Shown in pieces: positions 19,419-42,369 of a stretch of DNA of 64,000 bases. The stretch is from Conus ventricosus (taxonomy: Eukaryota > Mollusca > Gastropoda > Neogastropoda > Conidae), in the NCBI GenBank assembly GCA_018398815.1, contig CM031595.1, forward strand, positions 138,972,559 to 139,036,558, read 5' to 3'. The notes beneath the pieces were generated by a model, which made no database searches, had not been told where the DNA came from, and saw only the letters and a list, made by a program, of their open reading frames with translations. Both the position numbers and the translations under genes were made by a program. Within the stretch, counting starts at the first letter, position 1; each line of letters begins with the position of its first letter.

Positions 19419-19499
19419 TTGGTTCATTTTCGTTGTCCTGAGTGTTGTGTTTCTTGCCTGAAGAAGACACAAGAGGTCGAAACGCGTCGTGTTTTGTCT

Positions 19500-20254: not shown

Positions 20255-20935
20255 AGGCTAATGTTATATATTTTTAGCTATATTAAGGCTAACAGAATGA
20301 TTGGAATAATAAAAAGAACTTTTACATTTATAGAAAAGGACACTTTTTTTTTACAGTTATATCAGACACTAGTTAGACCTGTTCTTGAATATGGAAACAC
20401 TGTATGGTATCCAATGCGAAAGAGACGATCAGAAGCTTCAGAACAGGTACAAAGAAGAGCAACCAAGATTATTCATAATATAAAAGATTACTCATATCAG
20501 GAAAGATTAAAATATCTACAACTTCCAACACTTAAGGCAAGAAGAATAAGAGGAGACTAGATTCAAGCATATAAGAATGGAATTGATGATGTTGATAAAG
20601 CATGCTTTTTTTGTACTCCGCAGAAAAATATTACAAGGAACAGTGATCTATAAGATATTAAAACAATATTCAAGAACTAATTTGAGAAAATGTACTTTTA
20701 CTAACAGAGTAACCAATTTTTGGAATGAACTAACAGTTAACATCAAACGTGCACCAAGTATGTTTTTAAGAACCTCGTAGATAAACATGAAGTATTAACT
20801 AAAATAAAATATGAATTTGATGGATAATAGGACTAAGCTAGCCTACGACCGGACCAACGGTCACAAAAAAAAGAAGATATATACATGTATCCAGAAGGGG
20901 CGTAAAAAGCCTAAATAGGCTAAGTTGTTTTTAAT
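20255..20935 (+). mobile_element. LINE G: CR1/L2-like 3' end inside the SRSF2 intron
   Basis: A decayed C-terminal RT segment. KANRMIGIIKRTFTF, LVRPVLEYGNTVW, VQRRATKII and LKARRIRGD read in one frame to 20560. A stop follows at GD-TAG, then FTNRVTNFWNEL in another frame near 20700. The 3' UTR has the GCCTAAATAGGC hairpin (about 20909-20923) shared with LINEs C, D and F. No catalytic motif is present. It starts only about 170 bases after the SRSF2 donor site. Confidence 0.75.
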
Positions 20936-21042
20936 ACAATGCCCATGATCCTGATATATGCAATTTGCTTGGAAAGAGAACAACCTAGATCTCAGACTTA
21001 AAAACAGCTCTTGAAATCGCAATTTTTTTTTTTCTTTTCCAG

Positions 21043-21085
21043 ATGGGGATGTTTAACCTGCCCCGTGCTCGCAGTCTTCAAGTAG
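21043..21085 (+). other. Candidate cryptic/poison exon start in SRSF2 intron
   Basis: A 13-base T run and TCTTTTCCAG form a textbook acceptor ending at 21042. Joined to exon 1 in phase, it would read 14 codons and then a TAG at 21083-21085, which would truncate SRSF2 before the RS domain. SR protein genes are known to regulate themselves through such nonsense-inducing exons. No clear donor site follows, so it could also be a chance polypyrimidine tract. Confidence 0.2.
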
Positions 21086-21549
21086 ACTATTATGGCACAC
21101 AGGTTGCATGCATTGTGTATTTTCGTGTAGCCGGTACTCACCCGTCTTAGGACATGAGCATCGGGATCTTTAGAGTCCGTGTATGATCTTTAGTGCATGT
21201 GACACAGACTAGACCTCGGTTTATAGTCCCATCCGAACGACTATTGTTCCTGTTTGAGTTTGTAACAAAAGTTCTTGTGACTCCTTGAGTTTGTAACTTA
21301 AAAGTTCTTGCGCCTAATGGTCTTCTCCCATACCAGTGCTGAGTTTTAAACCTAACAATGGGCATCACAAAACATTCATGAACAAGTGACTGCACTGAAC
21401 ATTTGACAGGCTGACTGTGTGTGTGTGGGTGATAAGCATGCAAGAGGTATGTTTAGTCACCTTTTTACCTATTGCATTTTCTTTGGTTAATATTCATTTG
21501 AAGATCCGAATTTATCAGTACTGTATAGTAGTCAAGAGTGTGTTCTTAC

Positions 21550-22375
21550 AGGGCTCCCCCTCAGCTGCTGGTGAAGAGAGTGGGTTCACTCCGTATCTGA
21601 AATTCTAGAGGGTGTTTTCATCCTCACTTTCAAACTTTAGAGGGTGATTTTATTAAGACTTGCCGCAACTTAAACAATATCTACAGCATACTCTTGGTGA
21701 CTGGATTTTGCTTGTACAGATTAGAAGTCTGATTTCTGGCTTGCTGTCGTGCACACTGTGCAGATAATTTTTGGTGGAGTACATAATGGGTCTGATTTGA
21801 GCCATGGAAACTCTTGAACCTGTGCTTTTCTAAAAGTTCCATGATTCTTTACGATCTTCTTATCTGTCATCTTCTCCTCAGTTTTAGATTTTTTCTGTTT
21901 ACTGCCACGGTCTTCCTCTGTTTTGTCAGGATTTGGTTTTCGTTTCAACCACTGGTGAAGTAGAGATGCCATCTTCGCCGGTCACAGTAAAAGAAGCCAG
22001 ACTCTTTGAATGAGACGGTGCCAGCATTATCTTAGGGGCCAGATAATTGACCAATGAAAAACACGCATCTAAACTAAAGCGATGACGCGCAGCTTTTTTT
22101 ATTGCAGTCTGTTGGTCAAAGACTTTGTGGTCTCCGTTGTGCGGAATGGGCAACACCGACACGCTCGACGCAAAGTGAGATATTTTTTACTGCAGTCGGT
22201 CTCTTGTGAAACTTGCCGTTCACGCAGAGCACGGCCAGCCTGAAAAAAAAAACCCCCCCCAAACAGCAGAGGTTCAACGAAATCTTAGAGGGTGATTCAT
22301 CACTCCAGATTTTAATTTTCGAGGGTGAAGCTCATTGCGTGAAACACAAGTCCTAGGGGTAAAACTAGAGCTCTC
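21550..22375 (-). mobile_element. hAT-like fragment with transposase zinc-finger region
   Basis: The left edge begins CAGGGCTCCCC, the CAGGG start common in hAT elements. The right edge ends near GAGCTCT (about 22370), a possible decayed partner. Subterminal blocks with TAGAGGGTG occur at both ends (21606-21650 and 22286-22335) in the same orientation. In between, on the - strand, is a hAT-type zinc-finger coding remnant. I could not find an 8-bp target duplication, so the boundaries are tentative. Confidence 0.4.
21721..21972 (-). pseudogene. hAT-type transposase / ZNF N-terminal zinc-finger remnant
   Basis: 83 residues starting MASLLHQWLKRKP, with a Lys-rich linker followed by TFRKAQVQEFPWLKSDP and then ICTVC. 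The pattern [TF]-F-x-x-x-[WV]-x-x-E-F-P-W-L-x-[YS]-D followed by C-x-x-C is the TTF/BED-like zinc finger found at the N-terminus of hAT transposases and of host proteins derived from them. The rest of the finger and the catalytic and dimerisation domains are not seen downstream. It could be a first coding exon of a captured gene or simply a truncated transposon. Confidence 0.5.
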
Positions 22376-24654
22376 TAGTGCGTCGTGTGTAGCGCAAGAA
22401 TGCCTCGTCATGGGGAGACCTGTTCTTAAGTGGAATATGGTGGCATTATGAAGCAGTTCTGGTTATTGTCGATTGTAAAGGAAACGTTTCTTAATTGCCA
22501 AGGACAGCATAAGCTATAAGTTTGCATGTTATTAGAGGTAAAATGGACTACCGAGAATCGTATAAATGCCGACTCTACCCCACTTTGCTCATCCACCATG
22601 CTTTTGGGAGAAAGTGACTAAAATCAGCATATTACTGTTCTCTGACAAGTAAAGACTTCAAGAACCCAAAAATAACGATTATCTACAATCAAACATACTT
22701 GCAGGGAGTTATTCACGTTTTCAATACTAATTTATAAACTTTCTCAGAGAGTAGGTAGGGGAAAGGTAGCCAGGACTGAACACGCCCATAGTGTAACGCA
22801 CGGCGGAAAAGCTGTTTTGGTGGCTGAAGCGCCCATTACACGGTTTGGGTGCACCAGGCTATCGATTACTTTGCGGTATGTTAATTACAGCGTGGGGAGA
22901 GAGAGGAGAAACCCTGACAAGTTAAGGTTAAGTTGCCCTCAGAACAGACAGACAGAGAAGGAGAGACAGGAGACCAGACAGACGACAGGAGGCGGGCACA
23001 CACAACACACACAACCACACACCACTCATGGCCAGACAGACCACTCTTACTCGCCGCGCCTCCGCGCGCGCCTCACGCTGCGACAAAACTGAGAGGCTTA
23101 ATAAATCAATACTGCCGCCCGCTCCTCCCCTCACCCCACTCCTTCACGCTGGCCTGCGCATTTCAATATATTTCATAGCTTTTTACTCTGCCGCATGAGG
23201 GCGCTGTTTTAAAGCGCTCACATGGACCAAGTTTCTAAACACCGGTTTCATCATTCTTCTACTGACTTCCGGAACTTGCAAGGGACGCTTTTATGCGCTG
23301 AGTACTGTGTTTGGTGTGTTATTCTAAAAAATGGCTACCGGTTCACTGAAGAGCAGGCTCTCGCCATTGAACTCACCACAAGTTTTAACCATACTTGCTT
23401 GTCAGAGTATTTGTTTGAAAAACGAACGGGGTGAAGCCATGTCGTTACGCCCTGAAACCGAAAACGAAGTATTGCAATTTCCTAGAAGGAACAGAAAAAG
23501 AAAAAATTGGAACGAAAAAATGCTTTGGAAATGGACCGGACTATCTTAAAGGTTTGTTGGTACAAGGGAAAATTGAAACGTTGAAGCAATTATTGTGAAC
23601 AATATATAGCCCAATTTCAATCATGTGTTTGACTATCGGTGAGATGCGTTCACTCATTTAATAAATGGCGTGCATTGTTGAAAAGCCGGCCAACAACAAA
23701 GCAAACAATCCATCACGCAGTGATTGTTGGGCGTTTGGCTGAGTCAGCCAAGTCATTTAAAAAAAAAACAAAAACGACATCAAACATGCGTTTATTTCTT
23801 AAGACGCAGCGTGAGCAGCAGTGAACATGTCTGTATTCGTATGCTAGGAAACTGCATTCAAATTTCTGTGTGTTTTTATAACGATCCTAAATTTCCACAA
23901 GTAGAAATCAGTATAAATGACTGTGTAGCAAACGCAAGACCATTATTAAAACCTTATGCAACTGGATGGTGATTTCCGAGGGGGTTCTGGCAAGAAGTAT
24001 GATAGGGCTAGGCAGACCTTAGTTACATCCTACCTGTATGGAGAGGGAGTGTGTGTGGCCCAGCACTATCATCATATAAATGCTCCAAATATACAATGAA
24101 GGATGTACTACTACTTGGCGATTGAGCGCCATAAAGCTCGGCTACAGCAGCTAATTGCTGTAAACTCTGCCATAGACAGTTGCAAGCTGGTTGAGAATAA
24201 GAGGCAGCAGAGCAAATAGGCCATAACAAACCCTTGTGTTCGCTTGCGCCAATGACGTCAGCACCTGCAAAACGCTCGTGGCCATACTAGGTCCAAACGA
24301 CACCTATGTGATCGCTTGGACTACAAAGGCGGCAGCACCAGCAAAGAATCAGCGGCAAACTAGGCCAACGACCCTATGTGATCACTTGGGGTTGATTGGA
24401 GGTTAAGGTTGGCGCGGGACACAGCCTGGTAGTTCACTTTTGTTTATCTTTTCTTTGTTTGTTGGTGTTGTGTGTTTTGGCCTAACCCACGCACGCACGT
24501 CCCTCAACCCCACCCCTGGACTGTTTATTGTAGTGTTTGTTTGATTTGTGTGTTTGTAGTTTGTTTTGTCTACCCACGCATTGCACACCCTCCTACCCCC
24601 ACTCCAACCCACCGCCCCACCCCCCACCCACGCATGCACACACTCAAGTTCATC
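22376..24654. other. SRSF2 intron, no gene recognised
   Basis: 2.3 kb with a GACAG/CACA-rich stretch (22945-23030) and C-rich runs (24505-24630). An open frame of 72 codons at 23331-23549 (start MATGSLKSRLSP) is rich in Lys, Arg and Asn and shows no domain I know. Given the surrounding repeats it is not called as a gene. Confidence 0.4.
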
Positions 24655-24960
24655 TAAGTTTTTAACTTAAGTTTACCCCAAAGTAGTTCCCTTACTCAAG
24701 TTTGTCTGTTAGTTCATCCTTAGTTATCCTCAAGTCTTACTTAAGTTAACTTCTAAGTTTTTTAATTATTAAGTTGCCCCAGGTTCTTAATAAGTTTCTT
24801 AAGTAAGTTCTTAAGGTAAGTTCTTAATACAGTTATTGATCAAGTTCTTGATAAGTTCTGATTATGTTATCCTTTTAGTACATCAAGTTCTTATTAAAGT
24901 TATCTTTTAATTATCAAAAAAATTACAATCTATGTTTTTATCTTATATATAGCAGATGTA
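24655..24960. repeat. AAGTTCTTAA-type degenerate repeats at Polinton 1 left end
   Basis: About 300 bases with more than twenty AAGTT/AAGTTCTTAA/AACTTAA variants at irregular 10-20 base spacing. Polinton terminal regions often carry short subterminal repeats. The block stands immediately outside the small-ORF/integrase module, as expected for the integrase-proximal end. A related AT-rich AAGTTAG/AAGTA tract lies at 62960-63250 next to Polinton 2. Confidence 0.65.
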
Positions 24961-26320
24961 TAATATGTACACCACACGCCTCAAAAACGCCTGTCATCGT
25001 TGAGGATGTCCTTGCTCAGCGTTCTCGGCATAGTTCTTAAGGAAGGTTCTTACATCCGAAGCACCACCGCATTGATTACAATTTGGTCTATGGAATGCCT
25101 TTTATGACTCCATGTTCCTTTTAATTTATTGACACATCATTTTATAATAAGCCATGATCTATTTTTATTAAAAAATTTATAATTAAGTTCTAAAAATTAT
25201 TCATTATAAATGGATTACAAAATGATGCTTTGTTATTGGCGGTTTGGCGTGCAGTTGTCTTTTTTCTGCATTTTAATGGTTCAGATTTTTTGATTGCTCT
25301 TTGTTCTGTTGCAATTGTGTATCATATTTTATAGCAGCATTAAACCTGCCCCCAAACGCAGCATATGGAAGCCAAAAAATGCGCAAACAGTTTTAGTTAA
25401 ACATTCTTGAAGACTTTGGGGCCCTTGTATCACATGGAGTGTTTATAGCTGGCATTGAATCACTTTGTATCTGGCCCGTTGGCGGGGGTTTTGTTTTCAT
25501 GACTGAGTTCATATTCTGTAACATTATATAATTTTTTTTTTGTCTGTTCCACTCTGCTAATTTTCTTCCTGCTTCAACCACGCCAGGATTTTAATGGTCT
25601 CCAACTGATTCAGGGTTATCTGCTGATTTTCTGGTTGGTTACTTTCTCCACCTGTTTCAGTGTTTCTGAGTTTGCTGATTTTCCAGATCGTTACATTTTG
25701 AAGGGAAACAAAATCAAATGATTAAACAGTTATCTAATCCCATGATTAATGGCGATAACAATGTTCCAAATCTTAGTATAATCCACACCCTAGAGACTCT
25801 AAGACTTTGTTTAAAACTGGATCTGCGTCTATATCATACGAAGATCTTGTTCAGAATCAATGGGGAGAAAATCTACTGACTAGTTTAGTCGTACAAACTA
25901 AGAACGTTCTGCCCCACACTCTTTCACCATTCTAGACCCCAGCTGCGCTTCATACTTTTATGATACTTTAAATGTCCTTGCCCGGCGGCATCTGTTTGAA
26001 TCCTCGTTCTATGCTGGAAATCAGTTCCGAGGAAACTGTTTTTGTTTCCCACATGTGCCAATTAATACAGCCTCTCCTTTTGGGCTAATAGCTTGACTCA
26101 ATCAACTTGGTCATTCATAAGTTCAGGAAGGTTAGGCTGCCTTTGTTGCTGTAGGAGAATCATCGATCGTTCATGTTTTTTATTAAATTATAATTATATA
26201 TTTTTAAAAAATGAGCACGACAAAAAAACTATTGCCAATCCTTGTATTACATTCTGTGTTATTGGGGGGGGAGCCTTAGTGGGTTACTTCAATGCTCGGT
26301 AAAAGCTTGTTAAGAATTAA
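24961..26320. other. Polinton 1 left arm, no certain gene
   Basis: This part is non-coding or too decayed. A Gly-rich hydrophobic stretch (VIGGGALVGYF, about 26250-26290, + strand) could be what is left of another very small membrane ORF, but the evidence is slight. Confidence 0.35.
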
Positions 26321-26455
26321 AAACCAGCAGATATTGGCAAAACTAGCTTTGAGGATTCAGCAAAGCTGATTGCTATCATTGCAGCTTCGGTTGCACGAAA
26401 GGATTTCTAGTTGAGCATAGGAATAATTCAAGGACAATATATATTATGTAAGAAA
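26321..26455 (+). pseudogene. Polinton 1 copy of the 43-codon membrane ORF, broken
   Basis: The relic reads KPADIGKTSFED and then a hydrophobic segment LIAIIAAS followed by RKDF and a stop. The intact counterpart in Polinton 2 (60408-60539) has PADLG, IEDVVK, a hydrophobic core and SQDF at the same relative positions. No start codon is left in frame and a TAG follows RKDF. It sits directly before the GSN-motif relic and the integrase, as in Polinton 2. The function is unknown; a single short membrane segment is the only visible feature. Confidence 0.6.
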
Positions 26456-26473
26456 AAATACATTTATAAAAAC

Positions 26474-26690
26474 ATGGCTTCACTCGCAATAATGAAGGCG
26501 GCGGCATGTGGTGGATTGCGCTTGGCTTTAGCGGCAGTAATTTTGCATGTAGTAAATGGGGAATGACGGCGAGAGAAAAGACATAACAAAGGTACTAGAG
26601 GAATCTAGGACAGCTGCACAGACGCCTATGAAATGGCAGAGACTTGAGCAGTTAGATTTTAATATGACAACACTGAAAAGAAAGCGGGCA
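26474..26690 (+). pseudogene. Polinton 1 copy of the GSN-motif small protein, broken
   Basis: In the shifted frame the relic reads ALGFSGSNF, then KRHNK and later DAYEMAE. The better preserved copy in Polinton 2 has ALAFSGSNY, ERHNKA and DAYEKR at the same spacing. Frameshifts follow the ATG at 26474 and the FSGSNF block, and at least two stops interrupt the rest. The homology is direct between the two copies in this window. From memory, similar small proteins with a GSN-[YF]-[LM]-FS motif occur in Polintons of other invertebrates. No function is assigned. Confidence 0.65.
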
Positions 26691-26944
26691 TGCAGCTTAC
26701 ATATTTACTAAGATGTTGATAAAGCAATAATACAATATTATCTATTAACAGGCAAACCGGTCCAGCTTTGCCCCACCAAACTTCAGGTGACTTTTATTCA
26801 ACCATCGAAAACAAAGATGCAAGATATCGCGTTTATTGTCGTTTGGTATGTCTGTTGTGTATTTTTGTTGCGCATAATATCAGCTGAATTAAAAAATGAA
26901 CAACAATCTATTATTAGTTCACCAAAAGGATATTGAAGGGAATA

Positions 26945-27870
26945 ACAGAATTAAAATAGCTAGCCAGACAGCTGGAGGCAGTGAACCAAACAGCAAAAGA
27001 ATGGTTATCTAAACAAGCGATTTGGCAAAATTATTTACCAGCGCCCAAGACGAATACAGAGAACCCAAACTTTGTGTCTATACAACTCAAACGACACCAA
27101 TCAAATGGATCTTCTATATTTTACCTTCTGTTAGGATTAGACGAAAAAGATTTAAGTACGCACTCTCAGTAATGACATGGCTTCAAGATACAAAGAGATG
27201 CGGAAGCCATTAACAACAAACGAGTGCTTTCTGCTGTTGCTGTCGCTATACAACTGATATACACAACGAGGGCAACTAACTTATCTCGCATGATTCAAGT
27301 GGACGATTGGGAAAAGAATATATAAGGCCAAGTGAATCAATTATTGTTAAAACACAGTGTTACTATTGAGTGGCATTCCGGGAGTGCAACAGATCACAGG
27401 CTTTAGTTGAAAACTTTAACAACACTGGTTAGCCGAAAGATTTTCTCCTACCTGTATACAGAGAGCTTTATTGGACAATTCTGCAACTCAGAATGGGTTA
27501 GAAGACTGCCCTCAGTTTTGCGCGCAATGATAATGAAGATTTAAAAGGGTTAAAACCAGTACAGCAAATCAAAAAACAAACTATAAAAAGTTGCTGAAGG
27601 ATGAGTTCTTCATCGGCAAATATTACCGTTTGGTTTAAAAGTAAGGTACCTTATTTCCGGGCGGACAGCAAGAAGGGGACACTAGCATAAGGGCAAACCG
27701 ATCCAATTTGGAGTATTGATCCATATGAAATTAAAAAGACTTGTATAGATGAATCGCCCGTGTATTATTTACGAGAAACTGACACAACACACACAACCAT
27801 GCTCCTCAAAGATCTTTTAGTGAAAGAAGAACTGCTGATAATTCCGCCAGACACAGTTCCGCTTAATTAA
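26945..27870 (+). pseudogene. Polinton 1 integrase (rve family), broken
   Basis: The enzyme would join element ends to chromosomal DNA. The relic has AKEWLSKQAIWQNYLPAPK near the start, then RRKRFKYALSV, MASRYKE, MIQVDDW (second catalytic Asp region, about 27290), LVEN-like residues (about 27400) and SPVYYLRET near the C-terminus, ending at a TAA (27868-27870). All these blocks recur in Polinton 2. The first catalytic Asp segment and several others lie in different frames, and at least five frameshifts or stops occur. It is dead. It ends about 80 bases from the end of the convergent polymerase gene, a tail-to-tail arrangement. Confidence 0.8.
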
Positions 27871-27952
27871 TTTACGGTTCGCCAGAGCCCAATTTGCAGA
27901 TGAAAACTTGGATTAACCAAACACCCGTTTTGTGTTTGTTCTATATAAGACT

Positions 27953-30900
27953 TCACCCCCCTCTTTGTCTACAAACTGTTGTGTTGATCTCCTGTAGATT
28001 TCGATAGCGTTTTACGTTGTCATGATGAAAAGATCTTATTGCCAAAAACAATAGCTTTTTGTAGTTGTCATGTGATATGTTTGACTGCACAAATGCTGCA
28101 GAGATATCTCCCTTTGCTTCGTAATGATTTCTCCTGGCTCGAAAATACTGTACTTTTTTGACCTTAACCCCATACTCCTGATCACCTTTCAGATAATTCA
28201 TCCTTCATTTTCCTAAAACCTTCCGTATTAGTAGTAATGAATGCAAAGGCGAACTTACTAGGGTAATCAGATGTATTACCATACCGCGTGTCTTTACTAT
28301 TCTATTTCCATGTCTTTATAGATGTCTTCAGTGGGGATATCTTACTAAACTGTCTCGGATCTGTGTAAAAGTACTCTGGACTCAGCATACGAGGCCTTAA
28401 AGCAGTCTTAAAGAAACTCTAAATCAAAGCTTTGTAATTCATAAAACAGTAAAACCCAATAAATACAGGTTTGTATAATTTGGACTTTCTTTTTTTCATC
28501 TTTATGCCAAAAAGATGATCATGAAATCTTCTGAAAGTCCTGATTATTAGGTTTGAAGTCAGCTTAATTGCTTCATTCTCTCTGGTGACAATCTGAAATC
28601 TTTGCGCTCTGTGCGGATTCTCCTTAGTCTTTCCATAAACAAGTGTTGCTCATTTCACTGAAAAATAAAGTCATTTTTCTGAAGCAATTGTGGATTTAGT
28701 CTGAGATCAGTTTCTTCATTGATGGATGGTTTCATGAACTGTTCTGTTCAAAAGCATTATACGAGAACTGCTGTCAACTTCAAACCATGTCTCAAATCAA
28801 AAATGTAGAAGTCTGTAATTGGCCCCCCGACATTTTTAATTTTTTTTTGCACTCAGAAGATTTAGGCACAAGTTTAGGTGGTTCTCTTGGATCCATCTTT
28901 TAGACTTTCTGCTGCTAATGGGTAGTCATTATGCAGGTCATGGAGTTCACTGAGAGATTCTAGTCATCTTCTAGAATGAAACCACGCTGTTGATCAGGCC
29001 GTTAAAACTGCCCCCAACCTCTTTAATGCCTTTTGAATATTATTTGTACCTCGTGTACATCTTTGATGTTGCGTAATGGCAAGCGAGTTGACGCATTTGC
29101 CCATCTCATAAGATTGTTTGCATCTAAAATAACATAAGATAGTTAGGCCTTTTACTCGGATCATAATTCATCTAGGTATTTGTTGTTTGCTTTACAGTAA
29201 TGATGCGGACGGCATACTAAATTCATCCCCGCAATCAGTATTCAATCATCCTGAATCATTGGTAAATCTGGACAATAAATCAATCTTTACTCCAGTATCT
29301 TTTAAGAAAGCGTCCCCCCAACTCATCCCGGGCGCAGAAATATAATGAGCAGGACTCCAAGCTGTAATGTTCATGCAGGGTCTTCCTATAATTTCTAATG
29401 ACGTCGCCAACAAAAAATACATCTGCCATTAATAGTATGAGTCATGATAGGTCTCCAATCAGTTTTACACTCTGACTTCGCACACGGGCCGCCATCTTGA
29501 GCATGTTTGGTAACTCAGAATCGCTGATTGATGTCTTTCCTCTAAGACTAGAAAAAGAACGCGCCTTTAGGAGGGGAAGAGTCTCTTTCGTCAAAACCTT
29601 TCCCCAACTGGTTCACTGTATCATAAGCGGTAAACCACCCTTTCTAAACAAGCGTTTTGAGTCAAAATATTCTTCGTTATTGGGCAGGGGACTTTAAAGG
29701 ACATAGCAGTGCCTCTAATGAGCCCATCATGTGTTGCATAGAGCGTAGACAAGACATGTATACTTTAAAGTGAAAACACATGTACTTTTATGATGACTGT
29801 GCAATGCATGTACCTGAAGGCGCTGGTTATGACTTGAAATATAAGATCGAGAGTCGTAAACATCGCAAGTTATGAAAGAAGATGGCGCAGCTTCCATGTT
29901 CTTTGGGTTCAAAATTTAGTGAAGGATTGCATTTACTGTGCGCTGCTCCTCTGAACTTTCGTAATGTGTCATGGTCTCTTACTGTGGGGTTTACACTCTT
30001 GGGCGTTAGCTCTAAAACCGCAAAATATCCATACAATGCGTGAGCTGAGTCACATAATGTTGTTGGTCTTCAGGCGTCAATTATGATTTCAGATATGTTT
30101 AGATTATTAGAACAGGCGTTACGCACTTGCTGCATGCGTTTTAGAATGTTTCTGCTCAGCATAATGTTCATCTATTTATTCTGGCTCTGAATAAACGCCA
30201 TCCGAACCCCTAACAATAAATGAAGGCAAAGGAACAAATCTGACAATTACTCATTAAGAACTGTTTTCGTAGTTTTGTAGTTGCTGGCCCTTCATAAGGA
30301 ACCAATCAGCGACTCGAAGTCTGCGTAAAACTAGTATGGACTTGTTGCAGCCCGACTTCTTCCAGTTTTAACATACCTTTAGATCTGGAGGGGGCGTACG
30401 TTGTTAGTTCTGTCTTACAGTCTACAGAAACTTTTACAATGTTTTCTATGTTCAAGCGACGGCTTCGATCGGTTGGAAATTTTGTTAACATTTTCTACAG
30501 AATTCTTGTTTTATGTTCATGTTTTGAAGTATGCGCTAATAATTGCTCATTGTGCGTATAAATGTGTAATGGGGGCAGTCCCTGTCTGGCGAAAAACATT
30601 AGAGTAATGTCCACATGACTTTTGGCTGGTTATCGCCTATTTTCGGATGTTCTTGGACACTTTAATTGGCACCAAATTTGTTTCCTCCATCCCATGTGTA
30701 TACATTATAACCGTTATATGGTTTGTTTGTTCTTCAATGCATCAATGTGGTCTACAATAAAGGAAAGGATTTCATCAAAGTTAAGATCTTTGGTGTAATT
30801 GCCGATATATTTAGTCACTCTCCTACTGCGTGTTCGCGGACCATGATGCAGCCTGCAAGAACACACCACATGACAAAATTTGTAGTCCTGAATTCTTTAT

Positions 30901-31050
30901 GGTTTAAAATTGCTCTCTTAAAACCAACTCCCGAGGTGCGGCAATGTAAGCCTCTGCCTACAATCGCGTGCACATACTTGCCCTGTTTGATAATCTTTAA
31001 TCCTCTAGACTTCGCCTCTGCACCAACCAGCAGCCTCTCTTTTTAGCTTC
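27953..31050 (-). pseudogene. Polinton 1 protein-primed DNA polymerase B, broken
   Basis: A family B polymerase that would replicate the element from a terminal protein. Landmarks read on - from 31050 down are listed here. An NFVMWCVLAG block (about 30860) matches the N-terminal KCFMWSVLA motif. CPHYTFIRTMS lies at about 30560. A zinc/HNH-like box, TVRDH ... FRGAAHSKCN, is near 29985-29925, followed by IFFHNLR. SPAHYISAPGMSW (about 29340) is the motif A-side block. KNDFIF ... ERLRRIRTERKDFRL (about 28680-28590) is the motif B side. FYTDPRQ (about 28360) stands where active enzymes have TDTDS. ISHDNYKKLLF is near the C-terminus (about 28060). The span of about 3.1 kb matches the usual 1000-1200 residues. 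Frames shift many times and motif C has lost catalytic Asp and Ser residues, so no polymerase can be made. Confidence 0.85.
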
Positions 31051-31560
31051 TCTGCACGGCACAGCGTCAAACTGTGTAAGCAGTTCGTACCTGCCCCAAC
31101 CGGGTGGTGTTAAGTATGGTGAGAAAGAATCGTTCTGTTGTTTTATGTCGAGAGACCCAGACTTCTAGATTTTCTTCATTTATTGTTACATAGTCGATTA
31201 CAATCAGCTAACATTACTTTAAATGGACGGGTCTATTGTTAGTTTGCACCTGAAACTTGAGAAATAGCATGAAACAACGCTTGACTGTACGTTTGTTGGG
31301 TCAATGACTTTCTAAATCAATATCATTCAGTGTCTTGATAAAGCTTCTTCGAGCATCCTTACAAACAAATTCGTCTTGTCTTCATATATCTTAGCATGCT
31401 GTCTTTCTTTTTCTAGCCAACATTATTTATTTAAATTAAAAAAAATACACACGGCGTAATCAGAATCAACTATCAACGGTTTTTTGCGCTTGGACTCATA
31501 ACTAATGTATATAAAACAACCTTTTGGTGTTGTTAATGTGAGCTGTTTAGAACAGAGTTT

Positions 31561-31776
31561 ATGTCTCGTTTACTTTTTTTTAAGCATTCCTTTTTTATCT
31601 GCTCAGGGGTTCTGGTGTTGAGAAAAATTGCCCCCCTCGCCCTTCTTTCTTTGAAGATCATAAACTTTAGTCCATTTTGTAGTCGGTCAAAATCGGGCTG
31701 TAAACGAGTAAATTCTTCATCCGGGTGTGTTGAGTCGCTGTGTTTATTTATTATCAGCTTGAAAGAACTAGTTTAG
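31561..31776 (-). pseudogene. Unidentified ORF remnant between polymerase B and capsid genes
   Basis: On the - strand about 70 codons stay open: HPDEEFTRLQPDFDRL, then MIFKERRARGAIFLN and a Lys-rich end. Its charged, helix-prone composition is unlike the T-rich random frames nearby, and its strand agrees with the flanking polymerase and capsid genes. I do not recognise the family. A small virion or packaging protein would be plausible by position, but that is only inference. Confidence 0.3.
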
Positions 31777-31899
31777 CTGTTCTTAGTGATCCATTCAGAT
31801 GTGTGCTTTTGGAGTTTAGTTTTTAATTTTTTGCCAGCCGCACCCTACGGCTAATGAACACAGGCGAGAGCTAAGACAAACATCACTAGAAGGTAAAGC

Positions 31900-33471
31900 T
31901 GGGTGCGCCTATCGCCCCTTGCTAAGAGACCTACACTCGTCCTGTGATAGAAGCAATTATAGTCGATGCTCCAGTATTAACATAAGTAACAGCATTAAAG
32001 AATGCAGAATACCTTCGTTTGGTTTTGCTTGTATTTTGAAAGGTCCTGCTCTAGTATTTGTTGCCATTTGTGTAATTGTTTGTTAATCTGAAGGTTTTTA
32101 CTTCAGGGGTTTCTATAACAGGAAGAATTCGCCTGCTATCTCTTCTTTTGGCGCGCTGTAGGCACTTTTGGATATAAACCTGAACAGACATTTTGCTTTT
32201 TTCTAAAATGGAAAAATAATTTAGTAAATTACAAATTTTTAATCTGTTTTCATCAATATTTCTAGATGACGAATCATATAACTAAAAACAAATGTACATT
32301 AAGCGGTTTATCGGCTCGTATTATTTATCAATTTGAATGTTTATTACGTCTCTCACGTTTCTCCGCTTCCATACAATCTATCCTCTGTTGCCCTTAGGTC
32401 AATCCATTAAACCGTATTATCGTTGTTAAAATAATTCATCAAGCCTAACTTTGTGAGAATAGTAAAAATCTTTAGACACTCAGACGTCTGCTTGTTTGTT
32501 GGATTTCTACCCTCCCACCCCAAAACAATTTTATTTATGTCGTCAAAATGATTGATAAGGTCTTAAGCCCGCTAGCGTAGAATTTGGTTAGGACTACAGT
32601 CAATTGTACATTGCAAACTTTCGTTATTTTAGGATTTAAAACTTCTTCACTTGCTCTTTGAACGGTTCTTCATTTTCACACAGCAATAAATACGTGTCTT
32701 GCTGCGACGGCTAAAAATAAATTCCATATAGTGTCTGCCTGCTTCTTGGATATGTTGTATTGGATGAATCACTCTTTCGTAATATATTGGTAATTTTGAC
32801 TGATATTGTTGTTCAATCAGCCTTGCTAAGTGAAGGTTGCTAACGACGTCAAACTCTAACGAGATGTCTGAAATGCTGTACTTTGCTTCGGTGTTGTGAT
32901 CTGCTAACACGTTTGTAGTCATTAAAGTTAGTTGGTATGACTATCTGTTTTAAAATGCTACTTTGTGAAAATGTTTTGGTGCATGCGACCTTTTAAAACT
33001 CAAATCTAAGGAGGGAATGAAAAACGATTTCCATACGGCAAAATTTAAGCTAAAGCCCTTTTGTTCTGCTTTTAGCACATGAGTCGGGAGTTTTTCGGGG
33101 GGGGCGTCTATTCTAAGCTTTAGTGCTTCTTCATTTTCAATTCTGAAACGAAGATCGCCCTTTCCGTTCCCGGTTAGCCATAGATCAGAATAGGTTAATA
33201 ATATGTCTGCATTATGTAAAGATAATATCTTCTTGCCCCTCAAGTTTTATAGAAATTTCTTAACAGATCGCCAGCCCCAGATTTGCACAATGTCCTGTTT
33301 GGGTCGGTTGTTGAATCGAGCGTATTTGAAAGTAAGACGCGCAGAGCATGGCACAATCACTTTCATTCCGCTCCTAGGTCCTGGAAATTTGACAGTAAGA
33401 ATTTGATTCTGCATCAATAGTGATGGTTTATTTGGAACAGTAATATTCCGCTTATTTCCCTTCACGTCCAA
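31900..33471 (-). pseudogene. Polinton 1 double-jelly-roll major capsid protein, broken
   Basis: This would form the icosahedral shell. On -, from 33471: VPNKPSLLMQNQILTVKFP and VIVPCSARLTF, then SVKKF, LSLHNADILLTYSDLWLT (about 33220-33165), LEFDVVSNLHLARLIEQQY (about 32850) and YYERVIHP. Further on, PKITKVCNVQLTV ... FYASGLKT follows in another frame (about 32630-32560). These blocks, in this order, match what I recall of the Polinton/adintovirus hexon-like capsid protein. The segment LARLIEQQY-x-YYERV matches the DLAR-x-IA-x-[EQ]Y-x-YDRV pattern of the second jelly roll. At least three frameshifts break the gene. The C-terminal end is an estimate. Confidence 0.7.
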
Positions 33472-33568
33472 AGGGCTCTTTCAGTTTCTTTTGCGCCGGT
33501 CAAGAATCGAGCCAGTACTTGTTCTGGGCATTTTTATGAAGCAAAATAAAAGTTATTTATTTAAAAAC

Positions 33569-34809
33569 ATGGCAGGACTTGTTGATGAAGAAGATTATGA
33601 TGTTATGATCGTTGGAGACGACATGAGTGAAATCGGATCCCCTTTTGACACGGCATCGCTCAATTCTCTCAATGACAGCGTGAATTCAACAGAAAGTACG
33701 GTCGGAGCATTTTACAAAGTTTAGGTTCAAGAACCTCCCGAATTTATAGACCTCCAAAATGATTTGAAGTAGAAGTGGTCATTTGTTTGTACAGCGGGCG
33801 ATCAAGTGCGCAACTTGTTCGGCTTACTACTAATAACACAGCCCCATCAAAGTTATTTAGCCTAAGAGGACAATTATCACAAAGACTCAGTGGTGAAAGA
33901 TACAATTTACGCCACTTGGTCTTGTTAGACCTAAATTAAAGGGCGGAGGCAGTTTCTAAAACTTCAACACTCCTGCTGAACTCCCCCAACAGCCTAACAA
34001 ATAACAAAACATGGAACTTGAAGAATTAAATCAAATGACAGATGAAATATAAACTGAATATAAGCAGAAAAAACCAGTTTTTCAGAGATACAGCGTTAAC
34101 AAACAATTAATGATTCCCCATTGCTATGCGAGAAGTACTAACAGGCCTTGATCATGACTTTAAGAACCATTAGGAGGCGAATTAACAAACAATTTTAGCA
34201 AAAACAGCGTGAACTAGTGAGCATTCTAAAAAGAGAAAAAGAAAAACTCGTTGAGCTGTATGAGCCAATTAGGAATGATATTAAAGAAATGAATAGCCCA
34301 AAGACTAAAAGTTCTTGAACAAGAGAAGATCAGCAAAGACTAGAAGAGGCTGTCTACTAACCGAAAACAATTACGAACCTCAAGTGAGCAGATAAGAGAA
34401 AACATATCCAAAGAATTTTTATGATGACACGACACTAGCTGGTAACGAATACGACACCAACTGTTTTTAGAGAGCAAGGAGTCTCATTAGTAAGCGGTTA
34501 TAACAGCTTCGGATTGCAATACATACACTAGTGATGGCTATTACCAGGCAGCGGTGCGAGGTCAAAGTTTAGTGCCTCCGTCGCCATCACACTTTCCACC
34601 TGATAAATCCTTGGAGTAAAAAAACAGCTTGATCATCTTGCGAATTATTAAATAAAATTAGCCAGTAAAGCTATATAGACTCTTTACCCGGTATTATTAA
34701 GGCGGTATTGTCAGTGGTTTTGTCTACTGCAAGCAAAGTAGTTGGCTTTTATGGCGAGCATTTATGGTCATTAGTTATCGTAATATTTTGGTTGGGTTTT
34801 CTTATTTAA
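33569..34809 (+). pseudogene. Polinton 1 coiled-coil, membrane-anchored protein, broken
   Basis: It starts MAGLVDEEDYDVMIVG at 33569 and stays open for 51 codons (to 33724). After frameshifts a long Lys/Glu-rich helical segment follows (RELVSILKREKEKLVELYE near 34210-34265), then LVSGYNSFGLQYIH (34492-34530). A hydrophobic C-terminus, SKVVGFYGEHLWSLVIV (34730-34780), ends at a TAA (34807-34809). The architecture is an acidic N-terminus, a coiled coil and a C-terminal membrane anchor. It is transcribed away from the capsid gene, about 100 bases from its start. I recall similar proteins next to capsid genes in other Polintons, of unknown role. Confidence 0.55.
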
Positions 34810-37800
34810 AAAAATTTTTTTGTAAGGCTAAAGACCAAGTAATCCTAGGCAGTTAATCCAAGAACAATGCGCTGTCTTTTCATATCATGGTCATCGCGAC
34901 AGAGTCATGCGAGCTTTCGCTGATCCTTCAATGACTTGGGGGTTTGGGACTTCAGGAATTGATGACTTAATCTTGTAGTGTTTGTTTACTGCTTGTAATA
35001 ATACTGATCAGAATTTTGTACGTTTTTCCCAACCTTCTGTTCATTGCCTGCTATAGGAATTTCAGTATTATAGTTTGTTATTATTCATACCTGAGAGTCT
35101 GAGGTCAGAAGGCGCATGTATAACCAGTGCCAAACAGGAAAAAGTTCTACTTTCGATCTTGCGTATTGTAAAACATTTTGGATCTTTTATTTACTGAAGG
35201 TAACATCAACGTAGAATTAATGACGTCCTCTTATATTTGCTAAGTATTGTTTTTGCCGTCTCAATAGCCTGTAGAATCGGGATCAGTTATGCTCGATCTT
35301 GCCTGTGCTTGGCCCCTAGCATACACCAAAAGTAAGTACGAATAGGAGTCGTTTATTCGTTCTATTCCGCCCTAGTTAGGCCCTTAGAAGTGTCTAAGAT
35401 AAATGTCTTGTCCTTGCTGTGTTGTGCTATTGCTCTATGGCCAATGGTTGAAAAAGCGTTGCGCTTGAAGCGAAAGATGTGTAAGGAGGATTCCAGTCAT
35501 ATTTAAACCTTTCTGTGCTATGCCCCAAAAATAAGGGGTGCCTAAGCCATGAATTAAGATCCAAATATGGTCTAAAGTCTGTCTTGGTGTTAATATCGAA
35601 TCGTTACAGATCCTTTTCAAAAAGCCCTTCTGTCCCTATTCGGTTGATGAATGGAGTATTAATAAAGGTTTGTCATTTGGCAAATGGCGCTTGCAATTCA
35701 GTTCAAAATAACGTCTGCAAAGGTGTATTAAAAAATGAAATCTGTACAATGACCTCACCAAAGGATCAGATGATATAAATGTTCAGCATTACGAACATCT
35801 CCCACACTCCAGTTGGATGCACCAAAACACGGCAAGTTTAAATGGTTCTGGAAAACTGCATCGGATGACTTAAGCCACGCTTTCGCGATGTAGTCTTTTT
35901 TAATAGGAGGGTTAAGAATCTGTTTAATGGAGTACTTACCTTTTTATGATAGGTGGTCAGTCAGGGTCACAGAAATTGGTCGAGGGTGCCAGTTGTTATA
36001 TTTTTAAGATATGTAGTGCGGCCCCCACACAACAAGACATATTTTGCATCAGTATATTTGAATGCACTCATTTTTAATTTGTTTTTAAAAAATGTTTGTA
36101 CAATAACAACCAAACGGACCGACCTTCGTTTTTAGAACATGCTGTAAGAAGATTGCGGAACCAAAATGGTCGCACTCCATGAAATATTCTACAAAGTCGT
36201 ATGGTTTCTTAATATAACTGAATCCCGGAAGAATAACCAAGATCTAAAAGTTACAAAGGCAGAAGGTCCAAACAGTTAGCCAGTTAATAAATACCTGATG
36301 GTTATTACGGGTTTTGTCGCTAAAAGTAAGCAATGAGTAAACTTTTGACATTACTCTCAACTTAAACAAGGCAAATCTAAAAAACAATGTTAACATTCAA
36401 GCCTGAGAAGTAATCTTACTTTTTTTGATGGAGCTTAGCTAAAATGTTTGGCTTTACTAACTAGCAATCTACCCAACTCATGGTTTTAGTGCGAGACAGA
36501 CAAAACAACTTATGAGGGGAGGACAAATTCCATCCCCCCTCCCCCTGCTCGATCTTGCCTTTCCATTGATTACTCTATGTTCATTTGGATGAGCTCCAAG
36601 CATGATGAAAACTTATATGACGGTAGGCCCTCAACTGTTTTAAGAGTCCTTCGTCAGGAATAGCTGCATATTGGATTATGAAATTATACAATTCCCTAAT
36701 ATACAGTTTTAAAGATTAGTTTGTGGGAGGGTTGGATAATTTAATATAAAATCAAAGACAAAGCGGGGAAAGTTTTGTTGAAATGTGATAACCTGGACAT
36801 TGTTTTGGTAATAAATTAATAAACTGTACTAAAAAGTGTGCGCGGGGGCCAGAAGAAACCAGGAGTTACATTAGATCCTGTGAGACAAGTGTATAAGCTT
36901 TAGATTAAAAGACACTTGCAGAAGTTGCGGACTTTGAAAAGAACGGTGAGATAAGGCGATTGTATGGTTTTGAGTAACTTAAGATGGTGAATAACTCGCT
37001 ACATGTCTGATGCGTGTCATGAAAAAATAGTGTTACTACTTCCTTTCTTCATGCCGACAGCAAAATGTTTCCTAAACTAGAACAAACCATGCGCAATCTA
37101 GAGGGCAAATAATGTTGGCCAGTATGAATATAATTAGTTCGAAAGCCTGACCTCAAATGGCACTGTAGAAGACCATATATATGATTGAGGAAATAAATTT
37201 GAATTCATTAAGCCCATTTACATATTTTAGCCGTCAAAACGTTTCAGAAGAAGCATTCAACTCTGGCCCTGTACATGTTAAGTTTTTGCCGGACGACAAT
37301 AGCCGAAAGGAAAGATTGAAATAACGCCGTATGGGAAAAAACAGTACATCCTACACAGAAAAGAAAACAGTTGTAAAAAAAGCTTCTACTAAAATTACTG
37401 TTCTTTCCAAGCAGGAAAATTAGGAGGCACGTTCACAAAGGATATTTGTAAATTTATGTCTTTAAAGAATGTGGAGAGGGATGGGGTTTGGGGCCGTTAG
37501 TGACGACCTTATAAAAGGAATTAATATTAGCTGGCAAAACTTTGACGTTAAAGTCCTTAACGCTTACCATCGTCGTTCTTCACAAATGGCGAGGATATTA
37601 AGATCTTAATCTACTAAGCAACAAAATCACTGTTGACTTAAATGAAACAATCTTACAGAACTAAATTGGATTAATCTTACACTTTAGGTCTTTGTAGGGT
37701 TTTTTTATACTGAACAGGTTTTTTAACGAACGTTGATAAATATAAATTAAATAACTGGATTAGATTAATTCTTCTATAAAACCATGGTGCAGTTAAAACT

Positions 37801-39060
37801 TTATGACAAGACTCCTCATTGCTAGTGATTTGTGGGCAGGGCTGGTTGTGGAAATAAATATTTGTCTAGACCTATACAAACAGTTTATCGCTATAATTTT
37901 TAATCATATTGTAGTTTTATGTCCGTCAATTAATAGGATACAAAGGCATATCATGATAGATGGTTTATTTGGACAGAGGATGAAATTTATGTAGTTAATT
38001 CCTAGCTATAATACTGTACGGTGAGTGTTATAGAACAGTTTTATAGCTGTTTGAAGGAACGCATAACACTATTATTATAGAGACTGTCCGTACGGCAGAA
38101 AGAGACATAGTTAAAAAAGAGAAACACTTTGTCCAAAATGCTTTCAGTGGAAGGCATGATGGGATAAAGTGTGTGGATTTTATGCCAGAAATTTAACTGG
38201 TTTTAAAAGACTTTAGAGGAACAGTTAAAAGGATTGTAGTGGTTATTTCACATGAAAAGACAGAGATCATTTGAAGATTGTTTGCGTGAAAATGATGTTA
38301 TTGAATCGATCAGGAAAAAACACGGGATTAAGCAAAACTTTAAATCTGAAAAAGTTTAGTAAATTTAGTATTGAACACGGATAACCCTGCCAGTATGTTT
38401 GTTGTAGATAATCGTTATATTTTAGTTATTGAAGTCCTTACTTGTCAGAGAACAGTAATATGCTGATTTAGGTCACTTTCGCCCTGACAACTCGCGTGGG
38501 AGCAAGTGGGGTAGAATACGGCTTTTATACGTTCTCTACTACACTAAATGTGAAGCCAAAGACAGAACGAAGCTTAGGGGGGGAAACGTACTGGAGGTTT
38601 ACCCACTAATCTTAGGATTAAACCTCGATTGCAGTTATTGAACCTGCGTGATCTAGGATTATACCTCGATTTGCAGTTAATTGGAAACCTGCACATTATG
38701 AGTCTTCATATGTTTCGTTCTTCTTTTTTTTCCTCATCTGTGTTATCTAAGACACCCTTTTATGTCATGTCGGTTTCATTTATTAAATCCAAGCAAGCAG
38801 ACCTCTATCAAGGCATGAATAGTTCCATGGATGGGATATCAATGTAGTGTACACTATTGAATGATAAGCAAGCGGAAAACAGGATTTTGCCTGTGATAAC
38901 TAGATTAAATTATTTGATAAAATGTGACAGGAAGTTGCACTTTTGTTTTTCATTTCGTTTTTCAATAGAGAACTTAAAAGGGAATCTGTTACCAACAAGG
39001 GCGAGAAGGGGAGGAGGCTTGCCTATTTCTTTTAAAAGACGCATGCTACTATAGATTTTA
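34810..39060. other. Right part of Polinton 1, genes not resolved
   Basis: By position this part should hold the minor capsid, cysteine protease and packaging ATPase genes. No motif is convincing. A VVRPPHNKTYF string at 36012-36045 (+) vaguely resembles a decayed Walker A loop (GPxxxGKT). A 35-codon ORF, MKRQRSFEDCLREND, sits at 38252-38359. A 36-38 base direct repeat with CTCGATT ... TTGCAGTTA occurs at about 38610-38690. Stops are dense in all frames. Confidence 0.4.
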
Positions 39061-39819
39061 TAGAGATGAGAATAAACGCATGTTGTCCTTAGCGGGTTGC
39101 ACCACTCCACGTCGGACATCGGACATAGACCGATTGCACATGCAAAATGTACCCGATTTAACTGGCAGTGTTACTTGAAGAGGCAAATGTCCCACTTTAC
39201 TTGCGGAAAACGACGGTCACTTCACGATAGCTTTCCGCATGCTCAACAGACATAGGCACCGGCTTTAAAGATCATACCGTTTATATCAAGACCGCATAAT
39301 TATTTGAGTGTGCCGGGACCGTCGTACAGAACTCAGTCTGGTAAATTTAGTGTAGGCTAAGCCAGTGAAATCACTTAGGCTATAGGCCATAACTGTTACT
39401 AGTCCCGTGTGCCACTGGCCTTAAGCTTGTGGCGAGCCGTGTGCGGTCTATTTTTAGCTCGTTGGCTTGCAATCTGCCTCCTCTGCTCGCAGAGGACTGA
39501 GCAGCAGAGTACGACAGTGAAGAGCTTCGCAGCCAGCTTGTGTCAGGGTTATTTTAGCGTAAGCAGCTTAAAGTGCTTGTAAATTGTTATGTGATTGTAG
39601 GGCCAGGTAGGCAACATGTTGCCAGCTTGCCATCACCCTGCCGTCCATACAGTAGATGAGATAGTGGGTTCATGCTACTCAGATTTTGATTTTTGACAAG
39701 TAAAGGAACAGATTGACAGCAGAAAAACCATGGCCATGCTGTTGCGGGTGCGACTGGATGGAGCAATGATGTCAAGGGGGGAATCAGGAATGGGTGTTCA
39801 GGGTGACAGATAGGTAATC
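39061..39819. other. SRSF2 intron, non-coding
   Basis: No gene recognised. Composition is more balanced than in the Polinton relic, suggesting host intron or another old repeat. The boundary with the Polinton is uncertain. Confidence 0.4.
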
Positions 39820-39964
39820 GGAAAAGAAGTCAACGGGAAAGAAAGTCAACGGAGGGTTGGGTTAGGAGTCAGGGTTAGGGTTAGGGTCAGGGTTAGGCTT
39901 AGGGTTAGGGTTAGAGTTAGGTTACTTTCTCTCCGTTGACTTTTTTTCCGTTGACTTTCTTTCC
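39820..39964. repeat. Foldback flanking telomere-like TTAGGG repeats
   Basis: The left arm (39820-39854) and right arm (39931-39964) are inverted repeats of 35 and 34 bases. Each holds two copies of AAGTCAACGG or its complement. Between them (39855-39930) lie about ten GTTAGG/TTAGGG-type units, several perfect and others with single changes (GGGTCAGG, TTAGGCTTAGGG). The animal telomere repeat is TTAGGG, so this is an interstitial telomere-like tract enclosed in a hairpin. It lies in the SRSF2 intron. Confidence 0.9.
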
Positions 39965-40272
39965 TACAATCGACAGAAAAGTGGGGAGAGAAAAGAAAAA
40001 GAATGCTCTTCAACCAAAAAGACGACTCCAAATGAATCAATATTGTACTTGAATACTAGCATTAGCAATGAATAGTGATTTAGGAAAGACACTGCCTCTG
40101 TGTGTGGTGACTGTGTGTGTGTGTGGACTAGTAATAGTATGTTTACCAAACATGACTTCCCACTCTAGGAATATAGTCAGCTTTTGTAATACCATTTTTG
40201 TGTGCATGATAAAACTTAATATACATTCAATCTGGCTTGCGTTCAAAATGTCCGATTGATTTTGTTATGAAG

Positions 40273-40318
40273 AGGACAAATGTCCTATTACTTCAGGGTG
40301 GTCCAGGACATTTGTCCT
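40273..40318. repeat. Pair of self-complementary AGGACA..TGTCCT boxes
   Basis: AGGACAAATGTCCT at 40273-40286 and AGGACATTTGTCCT at 40305-40318 are reverse complements of each other, and each is nearly palindromic. They could form a small hairpin. No function is implied. Confidence 0.7.
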
Positions 40319-40437
40319 ATAGATACTGCTAAGGATGTACAACCCTGCCATAGTTTGTTTCTGTTTTGGGACTTAATTTTTTCAAAGCAGGTCATAAAGT
40401 GCTTCGTCTTATGATGCAAGCATTGTCACTATAGACA

Positions 40438-41718
40438 CAGGGTTTGTACGCTCCTTGAAACTCCTTGAATTCTGACGGGAATTTCAAGACCTTGAAAACC
40501 TTTGAAAATCAATAAAATGTGGTTCTGTTGGCCAAACCTCCTTGAAAACTTTGAAAATCTAGCCATTGGCTCCAAAAATCTTTGATGTGGCCAAAAAAAA
40601 GTGGCATTTTGATTTTTCTGCGTTCAGGTTACTGAAAAATTATTTAAAAACAAATTTTTACAAACATCGTCGCGGTACTGGTTATTGTCGGCTATTTAAC
40701 CAAGGGAGATATTTTGTAACTTCATCAATTTTGATGAAGTTACAAATTATCTCCCTTGGTCGAAGATAATCCAGGATCGTGACGATGTTTGTAAAAATTT
40801 GTTTTAAAATAATTTTTGAGTAACCTGAACGCAGAAAAATCAAACTGCCATTTCTTTTTTCAGTGTTTACACAAGTAGTATAGCCTTCAGGGAGAGGAGG
40901 CACGAAAATTTGACCATTTTCTTTCAAAAATCATGTTATGTGTTTTTGTGCTCAAGAAAGTGTTGAAACCATCTGTGGTGTTCATTTTGGGTATGTTCAC
41001 ATTTTTCTTAGTAAAAATGACTTTATTTGAAGGAGGTGTGTGTGAAAATTGCTTAACTTCTTTACTTTCAAACGCTGTTTCTCAAAATCACTTTTTTCAA
41101 AAATGGTTGATGTGCAAGGTGTACAATATCTGTGGATCCAGACTAGCTAGCTTGGTAATTTTTTTTTTATTTGACCAGAAATGACTTCCGCATGCAATTA
41201 CATTTTGTTTATAAGTCAAAACATATCATTTGCTATTTCTATTGGAAAAATTCAAAAGCAATGAAACGTGAAGTCTGATTGCCACCATATGGGGAAAAAA
41301 TATTGAAAAAAAGCAGTTTAGATATATAAAAATCCTTTTGTAGTTGCATTTCTATAGCTCAGCAAAACAATATATAAAAAATCCTTTGTAATTGCATTAC
41401 TATAGCTCAGCAAAACAAGAAAAGCCATGTTTGAAGTGCTTAACATGTCTGCTATGATACAAATACAGTTCTTGTCATGAACCTTTTTTTATATTTTTCA
41501 TCATTTTGCCCCCGTTCGTGGTCCCCAAATCACACAAGAGCTTTGAAATCACCCAGATATGTTTTTTCCATGTTTTTTTAAAACATAAAACAATAGAAAA
41601 AAATGAAGTTTTAAAAGAACAATGGTTTAATTTTTGTGCCACCTCTTGCCCTTGAAATGGAATAAACGCTCCTTGAAAACTCCTTGAATTTTGTTCTTGG
41701 GAGTCTGTAGGAACCCTG
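40438..41718. mobile_element. hAT-like non-autonomous DNA transposon, 1281 bp
   Basis: The left end is CAGGGTTTGTACGCTCC. The right end, read on the other strand, is CAGGGTTCCTACAGACTCC. The CAGGGTTC[GC]TAC start is one I associate with hAT-type families. TAGACA directly flanks both sides (40432-40437 and 41719-41724), a 6-bp candidate duplication; hAT elements usually make 8 bp, so two bases may have diverged. CTCCTTGAAACTCCTTGAA-type blocks near both ends are in direct, not inverted, orientation. No transposase frame is present. Inside are a 280-base hairpin and a 57-base direct duplication (about 41315-41420). Confidence 0.72.
40594..40868. repeat. Large near-perfect hairpin (foldback MITE-like)
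   Basis: Two arms of about 135 bases meet at 40729-40730 (GTAACTTCATCAA / TTGATGAAGTTAC). The outer ends carry AAAAAGTGGCATTTTGA on the left and its near complement around 40855 on the right. Small indels interrupt the pairing. It is nested in the hAT-like element, so it is either part of its structure or a foldback that inserted later. A transcript through it would form a long double-stranded stem. Confidence 0.88.
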
Positions 41719-41724
41719 TAGACA

Positions 41725-42369
41725 AGTCAGCCTTAACTGTTATTGTCATAGAGATTAAGATTTGTTTGCCAACTTTGAGCTGGAAGAAGATGACTCTAAT
41801 GCTTTATAGATATTAAATTGAAAACTTAGCTACTGTGCTTTGTTGCCGTTCTAACAAAACAATTGAAAATACCAGAATCATGTGCCCTGCTTTTTAGTTT
41901 TTGTTTTTGTGTTTTTTTTTTAGTGCTCAGAGAGGGGCACAGTTGTTTGTGTTTATAATATTAATCCATGTTAGCAATAACAGTGGCATTAGTTGTTTTT
42001 TTTTAAGCATTTCAACTGGCATGGTATGTGCAGCCTTTAAGTAATACAGGAAATATGTTTATGGTAGAAATAGTTCCATAGAAAATACACCAGTTCTGAA
42101 CTGACTAATAAACATTGCCACTTGGATGGATGATCAGCAACATTTTCGACAGTATTGTTAGGTTGTTTTAAAGAAAAGAGAGGGGGGGGGGGGGGGGGGG
42201 TGGAAGGGGAGTGTGTAAGGCACACCATTATGTCCTCCTTTGTGTGTACATCTGTATATGGATGTGTGCATGATATAAGATTTAATGATTTGGCCTAGAG
42301 GGTACTGATTATTCATTTACATTCGCATTGAATAGGTTCTTTTGAGTTATAAATGTATGTTTCCAACAG
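41725..42369. other. 3' end of SRSF2 intron, non-coding
   Basis: T-rich sequence with a 20-base G run at 42182-42200. It ends in the acceptor TATGTTTCCAACAG at 42369. The polypyrimidine tract is short and interrupted by purines, so the acceptor looks moderate and may depend on enhancers in the RS exon. Confidence 0.6.

Follow-up and report, generated by a model that had tools for sequence, protein, structure and literature searches.

The 64,000-nucleotide window analyzed here (Conus ventricosus, assembly GCA_018398815.1, contig CM031595.1, positions 138,972,559 to 139,036,558 of the forward strand) carries the gene for the essential splicing factor SRSF2, whose intron holds what is almost certainly a Polinton/Maverick-type element that was inserted whole and has since decayed (Table 1). 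An open frame at 19690–20088 matched the RRM profile (PF00076, 3.5e-22) in the Pfam profile search, and the top PDB sequence match of this exon was SRSF2 (2lea, 8.4e-51). Exon 1 ends at 20084 and is followed by the donor GTAAGC at 20085. The acceptor CAG ends at 42369 and the RS-coding exon starts at 42370, with a split codon that keeps the frame across the junction. The SRSF2 exons are open in frame, and the element takes up 72% of the intron. The initial annotation of this DNA had placed a Polinton/Maverick element inside the SRSF2 intron, and the exon match, the GT and AG sites and the frame running into the RS-coding exon agree with that placement.

Self-comparison of the window returned an inverted repeat pair (22553–22748 and 38536–38345), defining terminal inverted repeats (TIRs) of ∼190 bp. 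The local score of the pair was 254, compared with at most 92 in 200 random stretch pairs from the window. The exact ends were fixed against the TIRs of other copies, and the pentanucleotide ACTAC flanks both. Exact 5-bp flanking repeats were also found on two more copies (ACATT on contig C15 and AGCTG on contig C4), and a 5-bp target duplication was present in 3/3 copies read at both ends. The left TIR had 40 scored matches in its own genome, itself included, among 1,289 candidates. The element had previously been drawn from 24655 to 39060; the location was right, but the edges missed ∼2.1 kb on the left and included ∼0.5 kb too much on the right.

Twelve proteins from the open frames of relatives elsewhere in the same genome, together with two polymerases of another lineage, were mapped onto the window by tblastn. 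All 12 relatives' proteins mapped within the element, and no hits at 1e-2 were obtained in five 9-base-block-shuffled windows and one reversed window. The genes run from the 289-aa gene to the ATPase in the order and on the strands given in Table 1. The integrase (+), polymerase B (−), capsid (−) and coiled-coil membrane protein (+) of the initial annotation were recovered in that order, and eight further genes were present, a packaging ATPase among them. The TIRs, the target duplication, the ATPase and the genomic relatives are additions to that annotation.

Table 1. Coordinates of the SRSF2 intron, the element and its decayed genes (positions in the window).
Feature	Position	Strand	Evidence
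SRSF2 intron, GT-AG, 22,285 bp, containing the Polinton element	20085..42369	+	RRM exon match, splice sites, continuous frame
Entire Polinton/Maverick-type element, 15,986 bp	22552..38537	+	TIRs, 5-bp target duplication, relatives cover 15,036/15,986 bp
Target site duplication ACTAC, left	22547..22551	+	
Target site duplication ACTAC, right	38538..38542	+	
Terminal inverted repeat, left	22552..22748	+	83.6% to right TIR over 201 columns
Terminal inverted repeat, right	38345..38537	-	Window self-comparison
Decayed gene, 289-aa relative	25679..26471	-	tblastn 3.8e-34
Decayed small gene, 124-aa relative, hydrophobic start	26500..26844	+	tblastn 9.1e-18; hydropathy
Decayed rve-type integrase	26935..27864	+	tblastn 1.3e-43; collinear relative PF00665 3.7e-10
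Decayed type B DNA polymerase	27873..31395	-	tblastn 1.9e-74; collinear relatives PF03175 1.9e-15, 6e-15
Decayed gene, 224-aa relative	31536..32219	-	tblastn 2.4e-29
Decayed putative major capsid protein gene	32237..33637	-	tblastn 1.8e-85; name by position and size
Decayed coiled-coil/membrane protein gene, 404-aa relative	33557..34800	+	tblastn 4.8e-25; strong hydrophobic segment in relative
Decayed gene, 310-aa relative	35091..36083	-	tblastn 1.2e-30
Decayed gene, 280-aa relative	35928..36745	+	tblastn 3.2e-31
Decayed gene, 161-aa relative	36831..37366	+	tblastn 1.9e-27
Decayed gene, 143-aa relative	37336..37765	+	tblastn 2.6e-14
Decayed genome-packaging-type ATPase	37769..38329	+	tblastn 9.2e-38; collinear relative Pox_A32 1.4e-16

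The genome searched for relatives comprised 3.52 Gb in 12,740 contigs. With 150 matches scored out of 8,916 first-look candidates, a capsid piece of the window had at least 149 other places in the genome (nearest scored, 74% identity, 1.2e-23). For a polymerase piece the same number scored, out of 18,008 candidates, also gave at least 149 (nearest scored, 68%, 5.7e-25). Relatives covered 15,036 of the 15,986 bp of the element (94%), and their cover ended at the element edges. Within the element, 22813–23099, 23177–23578 and 23692–23951 were without relative cover; outside it, the same relatives covered (at more than 30 bp) 4372–4428, 19371–19520, 58686–58955, 59004–60457 and 62367–64000. Collinear DNA alignments extended over 10.5 kb at 85% identity (copy L025), 6.9 kb at 84% (L028) and 2.5 kb at 84% (L029), with 3.5 kb at 82% reaching the right end (L030) and 3.0 kb at 80% on the left (L031). 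Within the element's own lineage, single long matches lay between 76% and 86%; another lineage, represented by three copies (L001, L002 and L005), gave 68–70%.

In the frames of the collinear relatives, rve (PF00665, 3.7e-10) and Pox_A32 (1.4e-16) scored above their cut-offs. DNA_pol_B_2 (PF03175), which marks type B DNA polymerases of the organellar/viral kind, exceeded its cut-off of 25.8 bits in two copies, whose matching parts scored 57.2 and 55.5 bits. Across the genome, PF03175 was listed at 54 places from 91 of 3,955 candidates scored, with several frames exceeding 1,000 aa; 46 of the 54 had no internal stop, although scoring favours the best copies and the listed counts are no estimate of the number of open copies. 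The window copy was not among the 54. Statistical significance was reached only because relatives in the same genome were compared. The Polinton/Maverick identity proposed at the outset is thus borne out by the collinear relatives, the gene map, the TIRs with their duplication, and the rve, DNA_pol_B_2 and Pox_A32 matches in relatives.

A separate feature of the relatives' polymerase is an endonuclease VII-like stretch at residues ∼420–477 of the L026 frame (PHROG 2e-6; sub-threshold in Pfam, 0.0023).

The reading frames of the window copy are broken. When seven genes were each aligned pairwise with a single relative, the indel length was not divisible by three in 243 of 276 cases, and stops had replaced 42 codons; frameshifts were found in 7/7 genes and stops in 6/7. 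The earlier claim that all genes are broken therefore stands for the seven examined. Over 1,762 sites of the polymerase that hardly vary among the other copies, the window copy had 247 private changes, spread 92/87/68 over the three codon positions. Of 15 other copies, the 11 least changed together had private changes distributed 37/42/118, as under purifying selection. The four copies outside that pool gave 33/17/57 (L003), 43/31/35 (L019), 60/50/50 (L022) and 20/22/12 (L024), the last three being flat over codon positions like the window copy.

The two TIRs of the window copy differ at 36/189 sites, compared with 4/192 in the C15 copy and 1/192 in the C4 copy. Their divergence was 0.22 or 0.29 per site in two alignments, about half of that per lineage. 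In the polymerase tree, from which L032 was left out for lack of a match, the window copy had the longest terminal branch of its own lineage (0.26 vs. 0.02–0.17). The TIR divergence and this branch together indicate that the insertion is old within its family. The estimates from the TIRs and from the polymerase branch are ∼2-fold apart, probably through alignment noise and pre-insertion divergence. With assumed neutral rates of 1–5e-9 per site and year, which are not species-specific, the TIR divergence would correspond to tens of millions of years. The element is an old, neutrally decaying insertion whose age is relative, and the suggestion that it had resided long enough to decay is upheld by the TIR differences and the flat codon positions.

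Several observations weigh against the identification of the element as an old Polinton/Maverick. No relevant Pfam family was found in 20/20 stop-free pieces of the window (3 from the integrase region and 17 from 27.9–35.8 kb), and neither the capsid nor the polymerase piece of the window had a homologue in the protein collection. The initial annotation had proposed profile searches of the decayed DNA and had named a lack of polymerase and capsid hits as the outcome speaking against it; taken alone, the 20 null pieces and the empty protein searches would be that outcome. Of the families it named, rve integrase and DNA_pol_B_2 were recovered by profile on the collinear relatives and not on the decayed window pieces. 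PF03175 was absent from the listing for the relatives' full-length polymerase frames, which showed only the sub-threshold endonuclease VII match in Pfam (0.0023); the matching part alone gives it. The gene that we take to be the major capsid protein, for which a double jelly-roll fold had been proposed at the outset, is named from its position and size because no Pfam, PHROG or credible PDB-sequence match was found with the window piece, the relatives' frames or the capsid alignment. No protease family was found in the relatives' frames. The 5-bp target duplication differs from the 6 bp reported for vertebrate Mavericks (PMC8097293), support within the lineage was low in the polymerase tree, and alignment may have inflated the pairwise indel counts.

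Further searches were also negative. No penton-family match was found among several conserved genes of relatives (Pfam and PHROG). Viral-contig scans were unproductive for three element pieces, one piece of a second element in the window (see below) and the relatives' capsid alignment, and capsid DNA had no match in phage records. PDB searches by sequence gave nothing better than E 0.6 for the integrase piece, the capsid piece, a relative's capsid, the capsid alignment or a relative's polymerase. A single-sequence model of the window capsid piece had a mean predicted local distance difference test score (pLDDT) of 37 and was set aside as of no use for the fold. Integrase matches included entries named Elysia marginata and Thiodiazotropha symbiont bins; Thiodiazotropha are symbionts of lucinid clams.

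It is very unlikely that part of the element has been retained for a host function, e.g. with a regulatory or structural role in the SRSF2 intron. That it has kept almost its full length within a splicing-factor intron would fit such retention, but the frameshifts in all seven genes examined and the flat codon positions of the polymerase exclude a protein function for these genes. L019, L022 and L024 are equally flat elsewhere in the genome, so that no special fate is needed for the window copy. Slighter still is the chance that the element is really intact or young and that the breaks are assembly errors. The excess of indels that are not multiples of three is what raw long-read errors would leave. 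However, 46 of the 54 polymerase matches listed in the same assembly, a list that favours the best copies, are stop-free, the SRSF2 exons are in open frame, and the TIR differences far exceed those of the C15 and C4 copies. Chance motifs, or pieces of unrelated transposons (a Gypsy integrase, a long interspersed nuclear element (LINE)) joined by eye, would suit the null Pfam pieces and the two empty protein searches, but this explanation is refuted by 10.5 kb of collinear relative DNA at 85%, ends bounded by TIRs and a target duplication, and 12/12 mapped proteins with clean controls, and has practically no probability left.

The whole insertion of a Polinton/Maverick-type element can be pictured as follows. 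The element's own retroviral-type integrase would have made a 5-bp staggered cut, leaving an ACTAC copy beyond each inverted repeat. Where members of the family still work, copying of the element would fall to the polymerase and packaging to the capsid proteins and the ATPase, as their gene families suggest. After insertion this copy went unmaintained, and frameshifts, stops and substitutions at all codon positions built up. The host gene presumably still splices the element out, to judge from the splice sites and the exon frame. Its present effect is probably a longer intron and nothing more.

In size, TIRs, AG-rich ends, rve integrase, type B polymerase and packaging ATPase, the element resembles animal Polinton/Maverick elements (polintoviruses), and like them it has a capsid-like gene in mid-element. 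Polintons are described as 15–20 kb elements with a protein-primed DNA polymerase B (pPolB), an RVE integrase, an ATPase, a protease, a double jelly-roll capsid protein and a penton protein, an Ulp1/adenain-type cysteine protease being identifiable in 74% of them (PMC4028283). In contrast, protease and penton were not found here among the relatives' frames. The gene order is also unlike the two-module plan reported for vertebrate Mavericks (PMC8097293), and we regard the 6-bp duplication as a vertebrate feature that does not define the Polinton/Maverick family at large. Polinton-like viruses (PLVs) and virophages share small-DNA-virus capsid and packaging genes with this element; PLVs, however, are described as mostly without pPolB and RVE integrase (PMC11071308), and polymerase B and rve integrase are both present here. 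Ginger transposons likewise have an rve-type transposase and TIRs, but Ginger1 is reported at ∼2.6–7 kb with 4-bp duplications (PMC2836005), compared with 16 kb, 5 bp and polymerase and ATPase genes in this case.

A second Polinton element begins further right in the window, near 59 kb. Its integrase (59003–59923, −) is less decayed, with a 187-aa open piece (rve 1.2e-11), and is 67% identical in DNA to the integrase region of the first element; in phage records it gave five weak matches, the best at E 0.3. Polymerase pieces at 63.4–64 kb run past the window end, where the sequence was followed as L032. Beyond the polymerase, L032 contains 224-, 143- and 161-aa gene pieces, an ATPase, a capsid gene and 404- and 310-aa genes, to ∼72 kb in window positions. 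The second element belongs to a different lineage with a different gene order, a small membrane gene included, and its ends were not found. We infer that 59003 to ∼72 kb is one second element; a third element at 63.4–64 kb was considered and dropped, as the L032 gene run makes a single one simpler.

Other repeats lie in and around the SRSF2 intron. A LINE reverse transcriptase piece lies upstream of it (18048–19013, RVT_1 2.1e-16), and further such pieces were seen by eye in the frames at 16228–17379 (upstream) and 20246–20560 (just within the intron). A short TTAGGG-type telomere-like tract (39853–39918) lies just right of the element, and at 40593–40859 of the intron a near-palindromic pair of 89 nt (91%), inside which a 30-nt pair is nested, resembles a foldback or miniature inverted-repeat transposable element. 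Further right, direct repeats of ∼1.5 kb that are 98.4% identical (47206–48734 and 52187–53718) flank frames with SCAN, zinc-knuckle and reverse transcriptase RNase H matches; 47206–53718 is probably a young Gypsy-like long terminal repeat retrotransposon.

Mavericks are reported from all genomes analyzed in one mollusc-centred survey (PMC10294476). In vertebrates, most Mavericks are reported as degraded, and orthologous insertions gave minimum dates of 3–95 million years (PMC8097293). A literature search on the pair of terms Polinton and SRSF2 found no publication combining them. As fossils are already known in vertebrates (PMC8097293), the general view of Polintons is unchanged. The present element is a clean and fully bounded case of a virus-like element decaying in a splicing-factor intron, dated in relative terms by its own TIRs and with many relatives for comparison. 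We give an even chance to the proposal that it is a fossil from a Polinton lineage, distinguished by 5-bp duplications and a gene order of its own, whose copies have kept multiplying in this genome until now or until very recently; the absence of stops in 46 of the 54 listed polymerase matches and the few TIR differences in the C15 and C4 copies fit such an active lineage. If this is true, one genome would hold a time series of the lineage, from open copies to deep fossils.

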